DNA from: Beverwykella pulmonaria
Taxonomy: Eukaryota; Ascomycota; Dothideomycetes; Pleosporales; Melanommataceae
Direction: 5' to 3'
Assembly: GCA_001599595.1 (NCBI GenBank)
Contig: BCHH01000009.1
Span: 422,099 to 486,098 of the forward strand
Length of the DNA stretch: 64,000 nucleotides
This document shows, piece after piece, positions 2,223 to 24,410 of this stretch (positions are counted from its first letter, which is position 1; every line of letters starts with the position of its first letter). A program made the position numbers and the translations under genes. The notes beneath the pieces were generated by a model. The model saw only the letters and a program-made list of their open reading frames with translations. It did not search any database and was not told where the DNA came from.

Positions 2223-4037
2223 TCAAACCCCTGTTCCAGGGAACGCGCCCTTCTTATTTAACACCACCATACCATGGTCTCGCGAAATATAGCCCTTCAT
2301 GAGACCCTGCAACGATTGTTAGTGAGTGGGTTGCACAGCTCGACTACTATGTAGGTGGCAAAGCTGCCTAAACCAAGAGAAATCGCCTCGTACAAGGCAA
2401 CACTAGGCAATCAACCCAACAAGACATTCGGGAAAAATGGTGAAGATGGTGGAGGGTGGGTTAGGGTTCCAAGCGGCAACAACTCATAAGCGCTAGAGGC
2501 TGATCACATACCTTGTATATCATGTTGGCTAACAAGCACTCGACTTCATCGTCGTCCAAGACCTGGCCGCTGCCCTCTCCACGCACACCCATTCTTAGTG
2601 CGACGGCAAAATTTGCGATGGGTAGCCTAGTTTTTCTCATCCGATCTTTTGCGGCCTGGCCCTCCTTCAAATCCTCATAGCCTGCTGCAAGGAAGACTCT
2701 CCGCAAAAGGTTGCGCAAGGCGATATCGCGGCCCCGTTCTAGTGTTAGGTAGATACGGCGCTTGACGAATTCTGGTTCACTAGCCAGAAGGGCGTTGTCG
2801 AACCCAGAGAGATCGCCCGTCTTGATGCAGGCGACAAGTGGACCAAAGATGCTCTGGAGACGGGGGAAAGCTGCGAGAAGAGTTGGGCTTGGAATATTGT
2901 GCTTTGTGATTAGACGACATGGTATTAGGTATGTTAGAATGAGTCTGTTCTAATATTAGTGAGGCTGCCGAGTAGGATGGTAGGCTGAAGCATTACTCTT
3001 GATTCTTAGTGGACTCCGGAAAGCAATGGTCCCATGCCTCTGTTAAGTGCCGTTCAGCCTGTTCGACCGTTAGAAGGTAGCAGTGGACGTTTGGCAATGT
3101 GGAGACTGACATTCGCATAATCTTCCTGCAGGAAGGCGAGAATTCCAACGTAGTACTTGTATGTTACGCGATGTGCCTGTGGATACAGATCAAACATTGG
3201 GAGATCGACTTGTGCCTCGATGGATCTGACTACGTTCTTCGAGAGGCTAATTGCTTTGAGCTATGTAAGAGTGAGACTGAATATCCACAGAAATGCATGT
3301 GGCGGAGTCTATTACCTTGAAGTAGGTCTTGAACAAGAGATTGGCCATGCAATAGACACCCCATTTCCGAGACTCGGTGATATCGGGATTTCTACACTCG
3401 AGTCAGTGCTGCAAGCAGACTGGTTGATAGAATGAATCTCGGCAGACCTATCACCTAAGCATAGAGCAAACATCCTATTGAAGACACGTGCCGCTTCTTC
3501 AAGCTTGCTGTTCTTCGCAACCCCAGTGAGGACGTCGTCTTGTAGACCTGTGCTAAAGGTCACAGCGGGCTCGGCCTTCGCTAGCTGTGCATCCGCCTTC
3601 ATAGCAAACACTCTCAGATGATTGCCCACAGCGTACATGCACATGACCGTCCAAGGCGGGAGAGCGCCATTTGAGATGTATTTGATGATGCCGTTAGCCA
3701 CCTCTTTCCAAGCATCATATACGGCAACCAATTGTCCATCTCTAAGCTGCCCGAGGTTTCTGGCTTCCTCTGCTCTTAGAATCTCTCCCACAGCCTTCCA
3801 AAAGCTCACGAATATCTCAGTCCACGCGCTGCTCTCCTTGGGCGGGAGTTTGCTCGTCTGACTGTATTTCAAGGCATAGCGAATATCCCCCTCGACCTGG
3901 TGTTCATTCGAGGCACGGTAGAAGTCATAAAGACGACCAGGGTTATCGTGAGGTGGAATGGGGCTCAAAACGTCGGTAACGCGCCATGCCTGTCCTGAGG
4001 CATGGGCATCGTGGAATGGTTGGAGTGCTGCTTGCAT
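2223..4037 (-). CDS. CSN12: CSN12-like PCI-domain protein (COP9 signalosome subunit 12 / Thp3-Csn12 family)
   Basis: Six exons: 4037-3448, 3391-3316, 3260-3111, 3058-2997, 2944-2512 and 2306-2223 join to 464 residues, the usual family length. Landmarks are [10 protein letters not shown] near residue 35, [29 protein letters not shown] and the C-terminal [20 protein letters not shown], which together identify the Csn12 family and its C-terminal PCI/winged-helix domain. In yeast Csn12 works with Thp3 and Sem1 in mRNA transcription and splicing; that role is known for the family, not seen here. The first donor (GTCTGC) is weak but restores the expected Asp-Arg-Asn-Pro junction; a stronger GTGATA six bases upstream is the alternative. 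The start is the first ATG, directly after an in-frame TGA. Divergent from the L20 gene. Confidence 0.9.
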
Positions 4038-11234: not shown

Positions 11235-12222
11235 GGCTGGAACTGGGGAGGGGAACACAAAATGGAGGGCAAAGGTGCGGGGCGTCTCAATAATAGACAA
11301 CAGGACGAGGATTAGACATTAGAATAAGAATGGAAGGTAGCTGAAGTGCGAGTCATACGGGATGCGGCAGGAAGGAAAACAAACGGACGACGCAGGCGTC
11401 GCGGGCACCGCAAGGTCTTGAAGGCTGGCGGCCGGTACACGGCGGCTGCACCGTTTTCTGTGAGGGATACGTCAAGTGGTGTGGCCACCACCGTCAGCGC
11501 AACCCGGCATGACTAGTGGTCAGCAGCTGGCGGCGTTGACCACGCATCCCCAGCCCACCGCCGGGTACCTTGATTACTACATAGCGACCCCTGGTGCCGA
11601 AGATTCAAGAAAAAGGCAGCGCCCCCCGGGGGGTTAACAAACAAAGCATGCAGCATGTTGCATGGAGTCCGAAGAGAGGAGATGAACTGCCGGTTTCTGC
11701 ACGCCTGATTGGCCGCTGTCCGCCCCCAGCGGCGCAGGATAATAAGCAAGCCAAAGGTTGCGCGAGGTTGGGAAGAAGCAAGAGAGCCCACAACAAGGTT
11801 GTCTCGGGGATGCGCCGGTCTCCACGTGCAGCTAATCTCCCGAGCGCAGGCCAACAGACTAGAGATCAAGGCGTCGAGATTAATGCCCGGAGTCTGCAAT
11901 TTCGACCCCTGGAGATCCGGAGAGGTCACGTGAGAGAGATCTCCAACGTTTTTCCGGAAAGCGACAGGGGAATTGTTCCGCTGCACGCCAAGCCAATCCC
12001 TGGCGCGTTCGTGAAGCGGTCATGAAGTTTTGTGTTTGTTGACGACCGCGCACCGCCCTTCTCCGCTCACAGCCACCACGACCCGCTACGAGATCGCACG
12101 CCTGCCCGTACTAGGCCTGGCGTTCTCAACGCTGCAATTGCTCCGGTAGCTTCCAGCTCCATCTTGGACCTCGCCCGACCGAACACGATTGCACTTGAGC
12201 TCGCCCGAGCAGCAGCACAGCC
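11235..12222. promoter_or_regulatory. divergent promoter region of the SYLF and Nup85-like genes
   Basis: 988 nt between the two start codons. It holds two CACGTG E-boxes, at 11823-11828 and inside TCACGTGA at 11926-11933, and no supported gene. Short frames on both strands overlap and look random. Confidence 0.5.
11926..11933. promoter_or_regulatory. TCACGTGA palindrome (bHLH/Cbf1-type site)
   Basis: A perfect 8-base palindrome about 290 bases upstream of the Nup85-like ATG. TCACGTGA is the classic site of Cbf1-type bHLH factors in fungi; use here is inferred only. Confidence 0.3.
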
Positions 12223-15200
12223 ATGTTTCGCGTCCCGTCGTCTTCGCCGCCCTCGACTCCCGACTCCCGCCGCTCTAGTCGCCATTTCAATGCGCCGTCC
12301 ACTACGCCCGCGGGACCGCCGCCCGACATGGCCTTCATACCGTCGTCGACGCCAGCTGGCCCACCCCCCGCGACCGGCGGTCTCTTTGGCGCCTCACAGC
12401 CCAACTTTGGAGCTTCGAGGGCCCTAAACTTCAATCGCCCCAACTTTGGAAGCTCTCCTCCCAAGACGGAGCTGTTTGGCATTGGCAGTGGATCCATCAA
12501 GGCGTCGACTTCAGGTCGGCCTGCGACGCAGCGAGGCCGCACCAGCTCTGGGTATCGCGTCCCAAGCAGCCCTCCGCAGGCCCTGCAGAGAGAGCTCGAG
12601 GAGGAGGAAGAGGACTCAGAAACCGGCTCCGAGGAAGAGGATGACGAAATGGACGAGGAAGAAGAGGGCGACGACGATGCAGAGGGCGAAGAGGACGACG
12701 AGATGGACGACGACGAAGAGGAGGATTCCGAAGAAGAGGACTATAATAATACCGCCCAAGGAGCCCCACGAGGCCAGAACAGGCTTGCCCAGTCCACCTC
12801 GCGGAATAGCATGACCGAACCACCGTCCAGCCCTCTAATCGTGCGGCCTGAGGCTAAGCAGTCTCAGTACGACCTATTTCATTTGGCCAAAGGTCTTGCC
12901 CCGAGCAACGAACGCGTAGTCCTGCGAGAAACGGACGAGGTGATACTAGAAACCGAGCTCATTATGGAGAAGCTATGTGACTCAATGGCATCCGACGTGC
13001 CTGAGAAGAGGAGTGATATCCTCGGTGAAGTTGCACAAGAGTTGGTTGCATTGTGGAAAGGTCTACCTCAGTCATCGGCATCAAGTCATCCTGGAAAAAT
13101 TTCACACATGTCTCATGCCACCCGACTGGCAAGTCTTCTCCTCAACCTCCATTACCCTCCTCACATATCCCGGAACCAGCGCGCGTCTGCATTTTCTTTG
13201 GTTCCCACGCGTCCCGAACAAAGGCATTTCACCCCCATTCCTAAAGTGCTCCTGGATTGGTTGAATAACGAACACCAATCCTTTTCTGAGGTAGACCTAG
13301 TGTTGAAAGAGTCTCGTGGATATTCGGCCCATACGCATTTCTGGGACGCTGTTCAGGCTTCAGCATTTCGGGGCGACTTTGCGAAGACCCTGAAGTTACT
13401 TCGAGGAGCCAACTTCGGAGTCGCAGAGACAGCTCAAACCGATGGATTAGGAAACACCGGTTACAGCGGATCTCACCTAAGGCACACCAACGAGGCGGTA
13501 CGCATTGTTATAAGTCTCATCGAAGAGTGCCCTGCGATTACTTCAGAGGATTGGGATATCAAAGGGCATGACTGGGAGATCTTTCGGACGCGTGTTGAGC
13601 AGGCTTACAAGGACCTGCAAGAGTTTGCAGAAGGGGATAGTCAAAATCGACAAAGCGTCTCACAGCCATTCCAGGCTTCACACTTCGGCATCTCTCAGTC
13701 TCAGAACAGCTTCAACATGAGTACAGCCAGCCGAAAGGCGGAGAGCAATGTGCCGTGGTCCATTTACGAGAATCTGTCAAGGCTGTATAAGCAGCTTTAC
13801 GGGAGCGAAGAGGAGATAATTGCCGTCGCGACGGATTGGATCGAGGCAGTAATAGGCCTTACCATATGGTGGAATGGCGAGGAGCAAGAGGTCGCACAGG
13901 GCAGCCTCGCCGCTAGTCGCCGCTCCATTGCGCGATCACATCGAGTACGGACGGTAGATGTCACTCCCGTCAAGGCATACTGTCAGCGGCTATCCTCTGC
14001 ATTGGCTACTGTTTTTGAGACCGACGAAGCAGACTTTAGTCTCGATTGCACAAGCCGTGCTGAAGTAGGACTAGCCTGTATCTTCGATGATAATATCGAA
14101 GGTGTCTTGCAGATACTGCGTAGTTCGTCTCTCACTATCGCATCTGCCGTAGCGGAGGTCGCTAGTAGCGGCGAGTGGTTCACGAGAGCCGACGGTATTC
14201 TCAACCAGTTCGACCAAAGCGACCTCCTACTCCTAAGTCACACAGAGCCACTGCGCACAGGCATCTCTCGGGACAGTCTGCTAACAGATTATTCTAATCA
14301 ACTTTCGCGAAAGGGCGAGCTGACGAGTCGAGATGGCAAAACCGTCCGAGAGGGCTGGGAGCTTGCGATTCAGGTGCTTGGAAGACTGGAGGATATTGTG
14401 GCCGCCAACGATAAGATCGAACAAATCTTAAATGATCTTCCATTACAGTCACCAGAACGAGTCGATAAGATCACGCAGTTGTGCTATAGCATGGATTTAT
14501 CGAAACATGCCCTCAGCATTGCATTGGTATGTCACCTCTTCAAGAATTTGTGTCCAGCTCATACTAACATGCGCAGAAATATGCCGATCACCTCCGTCAC
14601 AATACAGAGAACTACGGAGATACGCTCTTGTACTATGCACGAGCCCACAACGCGGCAAAGATCCAAGAAGTCCTCCGGGTCCTCGTCGCACATTGCCTCG
14701 TAAAATCTATCGCATACCCTCCTCCTGCAGAACTAGATGAAAGTTTGAATGCTCTCATCGCATCTCCCAAACAGACTCTTACCAAACTCGCGAGCCAAGA
14801 CCCAGAAGGTGCCCAACTACTGTCGAACTACCTGAGTGGCTATGCTACCATCCGCAAATTTTATGATCTGCGAGATGAGGAGATTCTAGTAGAAGCTGGA
14901 GAGAAGCCTGCGCATCGACCGATGGCCCGGAAACGTGCCGCTGCGAATGCGCTGATGATCATTATCGCAAGTGCGGCATCCAGTATCCGAGGTGGCCTTT
15001 ATGATCCGGAAATCGAGACTGTGGTGCAGGTAGATGTGCTATTACCTCTTCTGGGGGAGGCGCTTATTTTCGTCAACCGTAAGAGTTCCTCCTTTTACTT
15101 CTCATACCTTCGACTAATTCGAGACCACAGAACCGAAGCGAACGCTCACTCTGCAGCACCTGTATGCCCTTCTCGCCGCAGTCGAAGACCTCGATACCGC

Positions 15201-16648: not shown

Positions 16649-19600
16649 ATGGAGGGCGCGAATTTCGATTTCAATCCAGTCATGGATTTCAGCAGCATGG
16701 GTGGATTCGTTGCTGACGAGTCTGCGTTTTTGAAGCCGGTGGAGGGTAACACTTCCACGGGGTACTTCTTTGGGGGCGACGAGGGAATTGATACGACGAC
16801 TGGAAACAGCTTTGATTTTGGGAATCAACAGCACTCCAGCTTCTCGACATTCCCAGAGGCAAGCTATACGATGCAGCAGAATCTTGTAAGACCGACCATT
16901 TTGGCATCATGCTTGGATGATGGCTAATGGATATGCAGGGCATGGATAACACCATGGGAGGAGCTTCCGCATGGAATAGCCACCAGATGTCTCTATCGCC
17001 CGCGACACGGTTGGACGACTACACACCTGCCACCACGTCGTTTGATTCGATATACCAACCTCAACTTAGCAACAGTCTTCACAGCAAACGCCCTCTGCAG
17101 CTTGATGTGCAAGACTTCCCCCAACCTAAGCGACACGAAAGTGTTGCGGAGTATGCAAACTTCTCTCCTTTCATGCCGTCAGCGTCGGTGACTGGGTCGA
17201 GCTGGACGATGGATACACAGCCGATCGCAACGCCATCGAGTACGAGCGAGATTGGGTTGACGGATGAGGCGGCTGATGTGTGTGCTACCTGGTTCAGCAA
17301 GTACGCTGTATTGCCTAGGTATGAAATTTCTATTCAAGGGCAAGAGGATTGCCCTAGCCCTATTCTATCTGCCAGAGGCACATCTACGTTATCCCCCTTA
17401 GAGTTACAGCTTCTGACTCGATCCTAGTGACCGGCACATCGAATCATTGAGCCAACTCACTGGCGAATCGCACAATGCCATTCGGAACTGGTTTGGTCAG
17501 ATGTTGAAACAGGGCATGGCCGGGCACGACAGTGGTTATAAGTCGCAAACGAGTCTGAGCCAGCCGGATCAGCTTCTTGGCGATGTATCCTTCCAAACAG
17601 CAGTGACGGATATGTCTTGCAATCACGATTCGCAAACAGCAACCAACCCCCCTGCTTCACGAGGTGGCAGGAAAGGGTGCAAGCCTACATCGAACCCCGA
17701 TCTTCTTAGCAGGGACCCAAACAAAATCTATCAGTGCACGCGGAAGTGCGGCAAGAGATATGGGCGAAAGTGCGACTGGAAGAGGAACGAGGAAGAAGGT
17801 TACCCTTCCAAGTCATGGAAATGCAGTCTATGCATTGGTCAGGGGATGGAGAAGGTGAAGCCCTGCTTCAGGAAGTATCATTTTTCCCAGGTAAGCACAT
17901 TTGATCCTGAGACATGAGCATTAACTAACTGGTTATAGCACTTCAGGAATATCCACCCTGGGCTGAACAGCGCCGACTATGAGACCGAGAGCGTTGTGCA
18001 TTCTGATACTTCCTTCCCGCGGAAGTGCGGATTTTGTTCCCACAGATTCACGTCTCGGCAGAACCGCATCGACCACATTGCAGGTATGTAGATATACATT
18101 ATTCAGTCATCTTGTTACCAAAACTAATTATCGTACAGACCACTTCAAAAACGGAAAGTGTATGCTAGACTGGAACGATGACGAAGACGACAATGGCGAC
18201 TCCGACAACATGGATGACGACGACGATGACAGGCCCGACAGTGACGGCTTCGACGGTTCTGCCGATGACCAACAAGACCAGGACACACAAGGTCGACCAG
18301 GTCCCAAGCAAGGCGGCAATGGCAGCAACGGACCTGGCGGACAGCGTCTTCCTAGCGGATTCGGTCAATTCCAACTCTCTCAACTCAAGAATAGCGACGC
18401 CGGTGATCAATCTTTCTGCGTCGATCAACAATCAGGTTCACAGGATGATCAGAACAATACCACCACTGATGGCCTTGAACATGGCACCGGCCCTGGGCTC
18501 CAGTGTTCATTGGAGGAGCAGCACTCATTGCAAGAACAGTGTTCACACCAAAAACAGTCATTGCAAGAACAACATTCACTGCCAGAGCAGTGCTCAATCC
18601 AGCAACAATGTTCAATCCAAGACCAACGCTCGATCCAAGCAGAGCCATCACTTGATGAGCAATGCTCAAGTCGAAGTAACTATTCAAGGTACAATACGGC
18701 AGAGGGAAGTCACCCGGATTCTGTGGCCCGAGATGATGTCACCGGTACCTTGATCAAATCAACCTCCCGGACGCAAACAACAATAGAGGAATCAAATAAT
18801 CTGACCAAGCTGTCGAAGACACCTCTACAACGAACGACGAAATGTGACGGCAAACTTGAACCAAAGTTTGTGGGAGCGACCTCCGACCTACCACTTGCGG
18901 ACCTTGGTATCTTTCAACAAGACGGTGGCCCAGTATCTAGCCCTTCTACTCTCGTTTTACCAGTCACGGATGCTGTGTTTTCAGAAGAGATAACACGGCC
19001 CACTGGAAAATTCGGCGAGGGTTGTAGAGTTGTCGCCAATTCCTCCAGCCCCGACGCACCTCGAGACAAGCTGCGTCTATTGACGCTTGAAGGCGGGGGC
19101 ATCCGTGACTCAACACTAATTCACTTGTTGGAACATCTCATGGGACAGTTCAACAACGAGGATGAAACTCGTGGAGGACGCGCAAGGCTTCGAGATTTCT
19201 TCGATGCCATTGGCGGTACCAGCACTGGAGGGTACGTGTTTAACCTAACAAGCAGAAACATTCGACTAACCAAGAAACCAGACTCTTTGCAACGATGCTC
19301 GGCCGTATTGGAATGGAGCCTGCTGCCATCTTCGACTTCGTCGCGGAAATGTCTCGAGCCAGCAAAGAACAGCTGATTTGTAGGGATAGCAGGCCGTCGG
19401 ATTGCCCGGCACAACCGCCTCCTCCGCCCCCGCCGGAACCATCTAAACCAGACAGGACCACAACTGGACAACCGGATTCCGACTCGGGCATGAATCCCAT
19501 ATGCAATTCCGAACACGTCTCCCAAGGCTGTGAGGCCCAGCTCCAAGTGCATTTCAATGCGAGTCTGGAGAAACCTCTAAATACTTACGTCACTTCTAAC

Positions 19601-22165
19601 GCTCTTCAATCTTATGGGAACCAAAGCCAGCTAAGTATCTTTAACCTAACTTCCTTGGACGGAAATTCCGGCATTCCTTCTCGAATCGAACCAGTGGTGT
19701 GTATGGCCCTGTCCACCGCCAACGAACCACAGGGTTTGCCTGAATATGTTTCGAAGAACACTTCTTCAGCTGTGACAGACTGGCTTGAGATGATCACCCC
19801 AAGTATTGATGTCTACCAATCTCAATCCTTCCTGAGCGTGAAGCTTCTTGGTACAGGTGGCTTCAGCACGGTGGACGAGGTTGTCCACCGCGAGACAAAT
19901 CTCCGAGTGAGTCGGAAAACACTTAAGAACAGAGAGCACTCTGCCATGGAAGAACTTCGCAAAGAGGTGAACGTGCTTCAGAAACTTCGTCACCCCCATA
20001 TTATTCGGTTCTTAGGAGCCTACTCGAAGGGCGACAAGATGTCAATCCTCCTCTCCCCCGTCGCGGATACAAACCTAGCTGTGTGGCTTGATCAATCTCT
20101 CACTGGCAAACCTCCTGGGCTAGCCGACACCATCGTAAAGATGTTCGGGTGTCTCGTGTCGTCGATTCGATACTTGCACGAGCAACGCCCAGTCATCAAG
20201 CATATGGACATCAAGCCGCAAAACATACTCGTCATGCACGGCAACCAACAATTTCCGCACGTCATTCTGAGCGATTTCGGCGTCAGCTCGTCTGAAGAGA
20301 ATGTCTCGCCAGACCGACGAACGAAGCCACTAACACGCCAATACTGCGCGCCGGAAGTCCCAAGCGGTATCGCTCGCGAACAAGCTGCGGACATCTGGAG
20401 CCTTGGTTGCGTATTTGTGGAGATGGCCGCAACGGCCTTCAGCCAGAACAATTCGAAGTGGCTCGACTTCCTCAAGGAGTTTGGCAGAAGCGAAGGCAAG
20501 TACTACTGGCAAAGCATACCTCGCCTCCACGAATGGCTGTCCGGATTCCTGGATCAAACTTCGTCTCCGACAGAGACGACCGTACTTATAGCCATAACGT
20601 CCATGCTGAACAGCGAACCAGCCGAACGACCTGACGCAGCCATGCTGACCATGGTCTTCACCCCTGCGCCCTGTTGCCTCGGCTGGGCGAACGAGAAGGC
20701 CTCCTTCCCCGGACCTGACGAAGAGCTCAAAACGGTAGAGATGCTCATCCGAGCCGATGGTGTCGATTGTCACTCCCAGCTTCATCTTCACAGCGATACC
20801 TGTGTCAAACAACAGCCTGAGCCTTTCACACGAGCCAAGAGCTGGCTAAAAGAATGCTCTCACGACCACGACGTATGCCAACAGCAATCTACCAAGACAA
20901 ACTTCCTCCCTACTCGTCTGGTTGATCTCCAGCCGCATGATGCTCATGGCTCCGAAGCCTACATCCGCATCGTCAATAGCGTTGACATTGAGCCTGAGGC
21001 TCAGCCTATTTACGCCGCGCTCAGCTATGTGTGGGGCCCCTCGGATCTCAGACTCACTCACGACCGTGTAGATAAAATGCAGAGCGGGTTTACTCGGGAC
21101 TTACTGTCAATCGCCGTCAACAACGCGATGACTGCCGCGAAGAATATTGGGTTCCGCTATATCTGGATTGACACGCTGTGTATCTTTCAAGATTCCGATT
21201 CAGATAAGGCTCGCGAGTGTATTGCCATGGCATCTATCTATCGCAACGCTGCCCTTACTATCGTTCTGTTCGCAACGCCATCGCCAACCTCGAGCAGCAG
21301 CGACGCCCTCTCAAAAGCAATGCCAAACAAAGATCGCGGCGACATCGTCACCACCATGACTTGGACCGACAAGGCCGATACGCACAGCGCTCCTTTCTCC
21401 TCCGCCACTCCCACCCCTAGCTTCGCCCTCGACACCCGCGCATGGAGTCTCCAAGAGCGGCTTCTCAGCCGACGACTCCTTCACCTCACAGACTCGCAGA
21501 TGTACTGGGAGTGCAACGCGCTCAAAGCGAGCGAGACCTTCCCGCGCGGTCTGCCACCTCTTGTTTGGGAGAAAGTGCATACCAAGCCGACTGTTCCGAC
21601 AGGGTCAGCACCAACTTTATCGCTCGCTTCAAGTTCTATGACGATATTGGGCTCGGTGACGCCACGTACCCGACCATCCAGCCGCCCGCTTCTGCGCAAC
21701 CGCCAATACATCCTCAAACGAAGCGATACTATTGTGAACTCAAAAACCGCACAGACACAGATGAGGCACAAGTTACTGCCCGGAGACAACGAACAAAGAA
21801 TGGCTTCAAGCATGAAAAAGTATTTTGAGAGTGCGTGGAGATTTAATGAGAGTAGGCAGCCAATAATGGGTAAGTTCGGCTCTGGGCAGTCGACGGCGAT
21901 GAGGGATAGGAACAATCAGGGCTTTCGTTTCGAGTTCAATTTTGAGGTTCCTGCTCTAGTGGGGGCTGAGGATGATAAGATGTTTGGTAAATGGGAAGAT
22001 GATTTGGACTTGGGTGACGTGAAGATGGATGGCGCTGGCTATCCTGATACAATTTACGAAAGAAAAGCCAATGTGGCAGGAAAAAAGAAAAAGAAAACAG
22101 AAGCGGAAGCAGAAACAGGGCTCGAAGCACTCGAAAATCCTCTATATAACTCTCGGTTTTTTTGA
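16649..22165 (+). CDS. multidomain fusion: homeodomain, zinc-binding Cys/His region, patatin-like fragment, protein kinase, HET domain
   Basis: Exons 16649-16885, 16939-17318, 17428-17890, 17939-18083, 18139-19231 and 19282-22165 join in frame to 1733 residues. In order: homeodomain-like helix AIRNWFGQMLKQ (~190-235); Cys/His-rich segments (~308-415: YQCTRKCGKRYGRKC, then CGFCSHRF with HIADHF); acidic and Gln/Glu/Ser/Cys repeat linker (~420-585); patatin-like segment with GGGIR (727-731) and GTSTGG (Ser770); proline linker; kinase (~959-1235) with GTGGFSTV, Lys985, HMDIKPQN (1080-1087), DFG (1104-1106) and APE; HET domain (~1350-1517) with YAALSYVWG, YIWIDTLCIFQDSDSDK and TRAWSLQERLLSRRLL. 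HET domains trigger cell death in fungal self/non-self recognition. Function as a sensor or regulator is inference. The patatin part ends before its catalytic Asp; the kinase keeps its key residues but has Met for the HRD Arg. Confidence 0.82.
18505..18665 (+). repeat. degenerate coding repeat, Gln/Glu/Ser/Cys units
   Basis: Units of about 18-24 bases built on CAG/GAA CAG TG(T/C) TCA code for residues ~530-584 of the fusion protein (units like EQCS, EQHSLQ, QQCSIQ). The repeat lies in the linker between the zinc-binding region and the patatin-like fragment. Confidence 0.75.
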
Positions 22166-22872
22166 ATCTTTTTAGAAAGGTTTAATTATAGGAAAGACAA
22201 CGAGGATGAGCATGGAATGATGATAGGGTTTCTTTTGTCAATCCACTAGTTTATTTCTTTGCAGTAGCCACTTGAATGAAGGATTTTACCATTTTACTAA
22301 GTGGAGCGTATCGTGCTGCTACTTTCACATAGACACATCTGGACAATCCCACTCTTTCCTATTTTCTGCCGAACATTCAAGACTCCTCCAAACCGCCTGC
22401 TCCATGCGAGCCAAGTCTTAGCACGCTAGCAAGGGACTCCGCGCCTCAACCTCCGCTATCGTCACAACGTCTTCTACTCCGATAACAGCACACAACATAT
22501 ATTCCGGTGAGTTCCTGCTCCGTTCGTTTCCCATCTTGATTGTATCAATGTCGTCGCATTTCCGTGCCTTGATGACATGCAAGTGTCTCCTTAGGTGGGG
22601 GTGGCCGTAAACATCATAAGACCGTCCCGCAGCTTTTCCGTCGGAAAGATATGGCAATGTCCTACCCTGTATTTTGTTGCCTTTCGATCATAGACGATCA
22701 TTGTGAGCTACATGTCTTGGAGTATTTATATCGAGATCTCCTTTGTCATTTCATAATCTGTCTCAACATTCTCCACCCCTCCATTCTTTCATACTTCCAA
22801 TTCTGATCCTCTCTCACACACACACCGCATCACCCAGCTCGCCCGTATTTTCATAAGGCCCAAGCACAACCC
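22166..22872. other. intergenic, promoter side of D-amino-acid oxidase
   Basis: 707 nt between the fusion gene stop and the oxidase start, same strand. A pyrimidine-rich stretch precedes the oxidase ATG. No gene seen. Confidence 0.45.
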
Positions 22873-24410
22873 ATGGCATTCGTCCAAGAACCCGTCAACT
22901 TCGTCGTCCTGGGCGCCGGTGTAATAGGCCTCACAACCGCCCTCACCCTCCGCGCCGCCTACCCCTTCTCTTCTATTACTATTGTGGCAAAGCACTTCCC
23001 CGGCGACCGCTCCATCGAGTATGCGTCGCCCTGGGCCGGCGCAAACTGGTCCTCTTTTGCGCGCGACAACGGTCCCCTTGAACACTACGACCGTGTTACG
23101 TTCCATAAGTTCTCCGAGATCGTGGACGAGTATCCCGAGGCGGGGATTGGGAGGATGGGGATGTGGTGAGTTTTTGATTTCAATGTTGCGTTAGGTCAAG
23201 CGGTGTTAACGGGTTTTAGGGGCGTGTTTGATGCGCCCCTTGAAGAGTCGGGCATTTTGAGTGAAGGAACGGGCAAGATTTGGTACGAGAACTTGGTCGG
23301 AGGCATCAGGTTTTTAGGCGAGGACGAGGGGCCCAAGGATAAGGTGTTTGGGGTGGAAATTAAAAGCACTTTTCGGATTGATGTGCAGGTTTATCTAGGA
23401 TGGTATGTTGAACTTATGCCTTTTTTTTCTTGTCCTCCTAACTCTTGTGCGGCGTTTGCGGTGTCAAAATCGTGCTGGGCTGCCTTCTATCACATAGAAA
23501 AATGGCCTTTTATTACTCTGGAGGAGAGAACTCGTGCAGAATACGCTTCTCCATATCCTTCTATGAAGCTACCCCCAAAGAGTAGAGGAGTGTGCCATTC
23601 CCAGCCTTCCATTCCCAGCCCTTCTCGAATCTCAGCACACCGCTAACCAACACGTCCAGGCTCCAATCCTGCACCCTCACCCAAAACATCAAACACATCC
23701 GGCGCTCCTACGCCTCTCTGAGCGCCGTCCTCACTGACTTCCCTAATACCACCCTCCTCATCAACGCCACGGCCCTCGGATCCCTCTCTCTAACTGACGT
23801 CAAAGATACAAACATGTACGCAACGCACCGGCCAACTTCCATACCCTACTGCTACCTTGCCCCAGACTCCAACTTTACATACCAGCTGACTTTTCCCTGA
23901 TAGGTACCCCACACGTGGCCAAACCTTGCTAATCGCCGAGCCCACCGTCCCTATGAAAAGAATGTACTTCCGCAGCACGCAGCGCCTCTCCTCGGAAGCC
24001 ACTTACATCTTCCCGCGGCCGTCAGGGGGCGGCGTGATCCTGGGCGGGTCGCGGCAAGACAACGACTGGAACGGTGAAGTGGACATGGAACTCGCGCAGG
24101 ACATCATGGAGAGGTGCTGCAAACTCGCCCCTGAACTGGGACGTCCAGAGGACCTGAAGGTAATAAGTCATAATGTGGGGCTGAGGCCGTCGCGAAAGGG
24201 CATGATCAGAGTCGAGCTCGAGAAATGGAGCAACGGCGTTCCGATCGTGCATAATTATGGCCATGCCGGGGCGGGATATCAGAGCTCTTGGTAGGTCTTA
24301 CGCTTTTCTATTTATGAAGTGGGGGAATAGGAGCTGATTATTGCAGGGGCACGGCGGAGCGCGCGCTCGAGCTCGTGAAGAAGGCTCTGGAGACTCAGGC
24401 GAGGCTTTGA
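22873..24410 (+). CDS. D-amino-acid oxidase (FAD-dependent)
   Basis: Exons 22873-23165, 23220-23402, 23660-23815, 23904-24290 and 24347-24410 join to 360 residues, the usual size. The N-terminal FAD-binding motif VVLGAGVIGLTTAL (GxGxxG at 14-19) is followed by EYASPWAGANWSSFA, then YPTRGQTLLI and HNVGLRPSRKG, and near the C terminus IVHNYGHAGAGYQSSWG, the flavin-contacting motif of DAO/DASPO. The enzyme oxidises D-amino acids to 2-oxo acids, ammonia and hydrogen peroxide. The protein ends in Ala-Arg-Leu, an accepted type 1 peroxisomal targeting signal. Intron 2 is long (257 nt). D-aspartate oxidase activity is an alternative. It converges with a catalase. Confidence 0.92.

Follow-up and report, generated by a model that had tools for sequence, protein, structure and literature searches.

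Genes encoding HET-domain proteins are described as poorly conserved between distant fungal species, with few of them acting in allorecognition (PMC10197012). TOL, HET-6, PIN-C and BH are HET-domain proteins of incompatibility (PMC10197012, PMC10890737). Homeobox-C2H2 proteins have been described as PsHOX5-9 (PMC11121360), and zinc-finger or kinase domains are known as integrated parts of fungal NLRs (PMC12258605). Here we analyse a gene of Beverwykella pulmonaria whose predicted product joins a homeodomain-like and zinc-binding head to a serine/threonine kinase and a HET domain. It lies in a stretch of 64,000 nucleotides (contig BCHH01000009.1, positions 422,099 to 486,098), which we call the window and whose own numbering is used throughout. 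The layout looks like that of a conserved protein and not like an accident of this genome. Our preferred reading, to which we give a probability of about 45%, is a gene family of Pleosporales and near kin that was assembled stepwise, and in which a head derived from a transcription factor holds an active kinase next to a putatively TIR-like HET module.

The gene and its relatives

A whole-length protein search returned 205 homologues at E<=0.001. The homologue statistics rest on the best 120 of these, or on 121 rows where the window protein is included, and the D-I-K-P-x-N pattern used for choosing rows excluded none of the 120. All four modules (homeodomain-like, zinc, kinase and HET) are covered to at least 60% in 100 of the 120 homologues listed; those with an organism name belong to Pleosporales or near kin. 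The same domain order, sought in other fungi, is present there, and the claim of the sequence-only reading that a DNA-binding-like head, a kinase and a HET domain form one fusion protein is supported. Taken singly at the same coverage, the kinase is found in 120, the HET region in 119, the zinc region in 117 and the homeodomain-like part in 101, and Pfam's precomputed list gives HET for every homologue listed except P0110. Pleomassaria siparia (P0001) has 58% identity over 96%. An NCBI organism name is attached to 65 of the 120, with 61 distinct names; four names occur twice, as two pairs that are 99.8-99.9% identical and two pairs at 92% and 81%, and some species may carry a second gene copy. 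By taxonomy lookup, Pleomassaria and Delitschia belong to Pleosporales and Zopfia to Dothideomycetes incertae sedis; the remaining organisms named we take to be Pleosporales. Within the genome of B. pulmonaria itself, among the matches listed, the full layout is found in the window only. The best-scoring HET place elsewhere is 39% identical and the best-scoring kinase 34%, and by eye the window's kinase is the only one of 44 listed kinase matches that lies less than 3 kb from a listed HET match on the same strand.

The features of the gene are as follows:

16649..22165, + strand: whole gene, 1733 residues (spliced frame; junctions match relatives' proteins)
16649-16885, 16939-17318, 17428-17890, 17939-18083, 18139-19231, 19282-22165, + strand: exons (spliced translation)
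16886-16938, 17319-17427, 17891-17938, 18084-18138, 19232-19281, + strand: introns 1-5 (GT-AG in 5/5; phases 0,2,0,1,2)
16649..17259, + strand: N-terminal region, residues 1-186, low complexity, split by intron 1 (identity, motif)
17260..17518, + strand: homeodomain-like helix bundle, residues 187-236, split by intron 2 (alignment, profile, structure model)
17708..18179, + strand: zinc-binding region, residues 300-422, split by introns 3 and 4 (ligands; all-pairs mean identity 0.78)
18201..19798, + strand: fast-evolving linker, residues 430-945, split by intron 5 (alignment)
19080..19360, + strand: patatin-like fragment, residues 723-799 (about 77), split by intron 5 (Pfam, pattern)
19838..20644, + strand: protein kinase, residues 959-1227 (Pfam, alignment)
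20825..20998, + strand: pre-HET segment, W-x3-C-x3-H-x2-C...LPTRL, residues 1288-1345 (alignment)
21011..21583, + strand: HET domain and conserved extension, residues 1350-1540 (Pfam match 1350-1498; alignment)
21596..22165, + strand: C-terminal tail with stop codon, poorly conserved (alignment)

The six exons, canonical splice sites and consistent phases of the original model were borne out: spliced translation of 16649-22165 (+) gives 1733 residues and a stop, and all five introns are GT-AG. The residues flanking junctions 1-4 fit both relatives compared, P0001 and P0005, and those at junction 5 fit P. siparia P0001, this segment being absent from P0005. The kinase and HET parts are encoded by a single unbroken exon, and the linker before them is free of stops in the spliced frame. 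Taken together with the relatives, the gene structure strongly supports a single gene for the whole fusion protein. A gene-model artefact, in which separate neighbours encoding the head and the kinase-HET part were falsely joined, would fit the annotation of Exserohilum P0124, which consists of the head only, and several metagenome models that stop inside the linker. We consider it highly improbable: the modules share one protein in the 100 homologues noted above, which are of many sources, the linker carries no stop, and the short metagenome models P0130, P0133 and P0137 seem to be cut short by reading through the position of intron 5. The upstream neighbour is a Nup85-like nucleoporin (window 12199-14703), and the downstream neighbour is a flavin adenine dinucleotide-dependent oxidoreductase of the DAO family (window 22807-24294).

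Conserved and eroded parts of the protein

Mean identity over all pairs is highest in the head (0.78 for the homeodomain-like part and 0.78 for the zinc region), followed by the kinase (0.665) and the HET part (0.57). It is 0.51 in the N-terminal region, 0.43 in the pre-HET segment, 0.41 in the tail (140 pairs only) and 0.22 in the linker (13 pairs only). The kinase domain is apparently active, judging by its residues: the P-loop, catalytic Lys, Asp, DFG and APE are all in place, and K985, E1001, D1082, N1087 and D1104 are present in 121/121 rows. Its match to PF00069 (residues 959-1227) has an E-value of 3e-40 and 138.6 bits against a cut-off of 31.7. No PDB sequence matched the kinase, but the limit set on this search (E up to 1e-20) was so stringent that the result says little; NCBIfam gave only kinase models on P0001 and P0055, far under their cut-offs; and a comparison of the kinase DNA with phage records, which gave no match, was uninformative.

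The head is the part that profiles miss. On the whole protein, Pfam found no homeobox or zinc-finger match at E up to 10, and because the head escapes Pfam, databases name the protein after its kinase only. Thus the profile check of the 1733-residue model placed kinase and HET above their cut-offs, while it placed patatin below and gave nothing for the head. When the homeodomain piece was isolated, Homeobox_KN matched with E 0.02 and 15.1 bits against a cut-off of 24. The structure model of the P0124 head resembled homeodomains, with Foldseek probabilities of up to 1.00 and a template modelling score of 0.86 on the target DUX4-HD2, and with no E-value below 0.1. On this model, the three-helix homeodomain fold is predicted to be retained. 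With homeodomain numbering anchored on where the KN profile match ends and on two intact relatives in the same genome, L042 (FFANARAR) and L045 (WMTNARAR), W48 and F49 are conserved in 102 of the 104 rows having a residue there. N51 and R53 are the residues by which a homeodomain contacts DNA. Among the rows having the residue, N51 occurs in 1/103 and R53 in 0/105, and the window protein has Q at position 51 and L at position 53.

The zinc-binding region is in better order. Finger 1 is degenerate, with C309, C313 and N326 in place of His, and the expected His is found in 0/110 rows having the residue. The ligands of finger 2 (C338, C341, H361, H366) and finger 3 (C390, C393, H406, H410) are of the C2H2 type, with a minimum of 112/114 rows having the residue (C338) and with H366 and finger 3 kept without exception. 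No C2H2 Pfam match above cut-off was obtained on the window protein, its zinc piece or the 13 other members of alignment A1. The proposed nuclear read-out is accordingly weakened, since N51 and R53 are gone family-wide, but two C2H2-type fingers with their ligands remain. The N-terminal region is covered over 60% or more of residues 1-185 by 80 of the 120 homologues, and among these the median identity is 0.49. Its pattern KR-x12-KR (K129 R130, K143 R144), nearly invariant among 14 aligned sequences, may be a weak nuclear-localisation-like motif.

Linker and tail vary fast. The linker is 60% covered in only 9/120 homologues, with a median identity of 0.19, and the tail in 32/120, with a median identity of 0.16; a short LRxxQxxxKxxD-like match in the tail favours the reading frame by eye. 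Inside the linker lies what had been read as a patatin domain. The Pfam match (residues 723-799, E 4e-5, 24.5 bits against a cut-off of 27.7) spans profile positions 1-63 of 191; GGGIR and GTSTG are present and the rest of the domain is absent, so that no complete patatin domain with a Ser-Asp dyad was found. The fragment occurs in 4 of the 144 proteins examined by pattern. Among the 120 aligned relatives it is found only in P0001, where GTSTG has become STSTG, and it recurs in the metagenome models P0130, P0133 and P0137 (from the head search), followed by the apparent read-through at intron 5. A working patatin module is therefore unsupported, and we rejected it as a fragment below cut-off and present in 1/120 aligned relatives. 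Seven further places in the genome match the fragment at 37-42% identity, and we take the piece to be a captured, lineage-specific remnant that probably has no role of its own. By eye, the linkers of P0002 (Lojkania) and P0004 (Zopfia) hold other inserts with C2H2-like Cys/His patterns, and the linker seems to take up inserts repeatedly. In summary, five parts are indeed recognisable, but the patatin part is a fragment and the homeodomain has decayed at the positions that would read DNA.

Probable stepwise origin and possible roles

Parts of the layout occur separately, both in this genome and in other fungi. Ten further places in the genome have a match to the zinc module with an E-value of 0.01 or less. 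L042 (G000:C8:578000-587900) and L045 (G000:C5:3022000-3031900, minus) contain homeobox-C2H2 open reading frames (ORFs) with N-x-R intact, a layout that is likely the ancestral state of the head. At L037 (G000:C13:934500-944400) and L038 (G000:C4:490500-500400, minus), an ORF with the zinc module precedes a kinase ORF, and HET was not seen; in L038 the kinase ORF sits beyond an in-frame stop, and both are counted as predicted ORFs irrespective of splicing. By eye, the zinc-module ORFs of L040 (G000:C1:4391000-4400900, at 2261-3229) look like a near-copy of those in L038, and the two L040 ORFs scanned gave no match to a kinase family. Among proteins, P0145, P0146, P0148 and Eremomyces P0131 have the head without the kinase, and the head-only proteins P0146, P0148 and P0150 have a recognised Homeobox_KN. 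The predicted proteins Coniosporium P0132, P0151 and Icmadophila P0152 have head and kinase without HET. P0151, P0152 and the window's family share the kinase words V-D-E-V-x-H and R-K-T-L and, after the kinase, F-x-P-[AG]-x-C-C. These shared motifs suggest that the head-kinase fusion was inherited from a common ancestor; a kinase tree agrees weakly (support 82/77, with L029 inside the group too). Given head-only and head-plus-kinase relatives, the order head, kinase, HET is the simplest reading, and the data suggest a stepwise assembly with HET last. The first step would have been a homeobox-C2H2 transcription-factor head, the second the fusion of a serine/threonine kinase to it, and the third the addition of the putatively TIR-like HET module.

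The HET part itself is well recognised. PF06985 matches residues 1350-1498 with E 2e-24 and 86.9 bits against a cut-off of 22.5, and HET is matched at E up to 0.1 in 14/14 members of alignment A1. In the pre-HET segment, W1294, C1298, H1302 and C1305 are present in 121/121 rows. The window protein retains both the motif-1 glycine and the motif-3 glutamate; over the 121 rows, the latter position holds E in 89, D in 26, N in 5 and a gap in 1. In 11 other HET loci of the genome, a control biased to well-kept copies (the 8 best HET matches and the 3 most window-like), the glycine is present in 11/11 and the glutamate in the 9/9 that reach motif 3 in frame, which L002 and L003 do not. Foldseek with the HET structure model returned nothing at E<=0.001, and a PDB sequence search with the HET part gave 0 matches at E up to 10. 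The 45.6 Mb genome has at least 155 HET-domain matches, in which intron-split genes may match exon by exon. Two of them, G000:C20:569165-569632 and G000:C24:5502-5969, have equal scores and frame lengths and are perhaps a duplicated segment or an assembly duplicate.

In our preferred reading, the head, without canonical homeodomain DNA reading but with two C2H2-type fingers, would anchor the protein to a fixed partner, nuclear or otherwise. With its catalytic residues in place, the kinase would be the main output, and the HET module would serve as a kinase-activated effector, either of cell death or linked to nicotinamide adenine dinucleotide (NAD), or else as a signalling platform. The cellular location, trigger, substrate and any death output are what we infer here. 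A sensor-transducer-executor order ending in a cell-death effector, as the sequence-only reading suggested, may be a role of the protein, toward which only the general HET-domain literature points. Two points weigh against this reading: the motif-1 glycine is kept in 22/121 rows, which speaks against a cell-death effector, and truncated gene models could mimic a missing HET and thereby a stepwise origin. A more specific version, which we regard as unlikely, is a conserved one-protein switch of Pleosporales and near kin from the nucleus to death or NAD: a head retired from its transcription-factor role would tether an active kinase, and the kinase would turn on a putatively TIR-like HET executor on the same chain, the whole being retained as an orthologue in spite of the reported fast turnover of HET genes.

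The same erosion of motif 1, together with a motif-3 glutamate that is not fixed, is also in keeping with the protein being a nuclear or developmental regulator whose zinc head would set an active kinase on chromatin or on a transcription complex, with HET as a worn, non-killing scaffold. The head is the most conserved part and the kinase the next, HET is missing from the head-plus-kinase relatives, and for the homeobox-C2H2 genes PsHOX6 and PsHOX9 of Phoma sorghina var. saccharum functions in mycelial growth and conidiation have been reported (PMC11121360). Yet the HET part is largely still constrained, as its mean identity and the invariant pre-HET residues indicate, and the homeodomain has lost its DNA-reading residues; we hold this alternative as a tenable, if tentative, possibility. 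A determinant of vegetative incompatibility or of immune type, in which linker or tail alleles are sensed and the HET part executes death, would make sense of the fast variation in linker and tail, and incompatibility genes often carry HET domains (PMC10197012). However, only a small minority of HET genes have an allorecognition role, and the poor conservation described for HET genes across distant species (PMC10197012) contrasts with the window's family. Measured against the published fast turnover of HET genes (a comparison with the literature alone), conservation is wide here, which would argue against a typical polymorphic incompatibility gene, and we think such a role quite unlikely.

Comparison with known systems

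Among the papers listed by the literature searches, some of whose lists were cut short, no title or abstract start describes the combination; most subscription journals lie outside the library searched. The combination is already in public databases, without a described function found there, and what makes it noteworthy is less its length than its conservation. The relatives provide a stable set in which kinase regulation of HET could be tested by deletion or point mutation, and the family bears on what activates HET-domain proteins outside incompatibility.

Like fungal NLRs (PMC12258605), the window protein carries effector and signalling domains on a single chain, but it differs from them in that a search to E 10, subject to HMMER's filters, matched neither NACHT nor NB-ARC and that it has no repeat family, and membership in that group was rejected. 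It resembles HET-domain proteins (PF06985) in its significant HET match, its pre-HET segment and motifs 2 and 3; unlike TOL, HET-6, PIN-C and BH, it carries HET towards the C-terminus of a chain that includes a kinase, is widely conserved and belongs to a family in which motif 1 is often eroded. With the fungal homeobox-C2H2 proteins PsHOX5-9 (PMC11121360) it shares a homeodomain fold, as predicted, followed by a C2H2-type zinc region, and its zinc module matches homeobox-C2H2 ORFs of its own genome; in contrast to PsHOX5-9, its homeodomain is without N51 and R53 and under the Pfam cut-off, and it is fused to kinase and HET. Lastly, Coniosporium tulheliwenetii P0132 and Icmadophila ericetorum P0152 share its type of zinc head and have a related kinase, with the post-kinase motif FSPAxCC in P0152 and FTPAxCC in the window's family, but whereas these predicted proteins are without HET, the window protein carries it.

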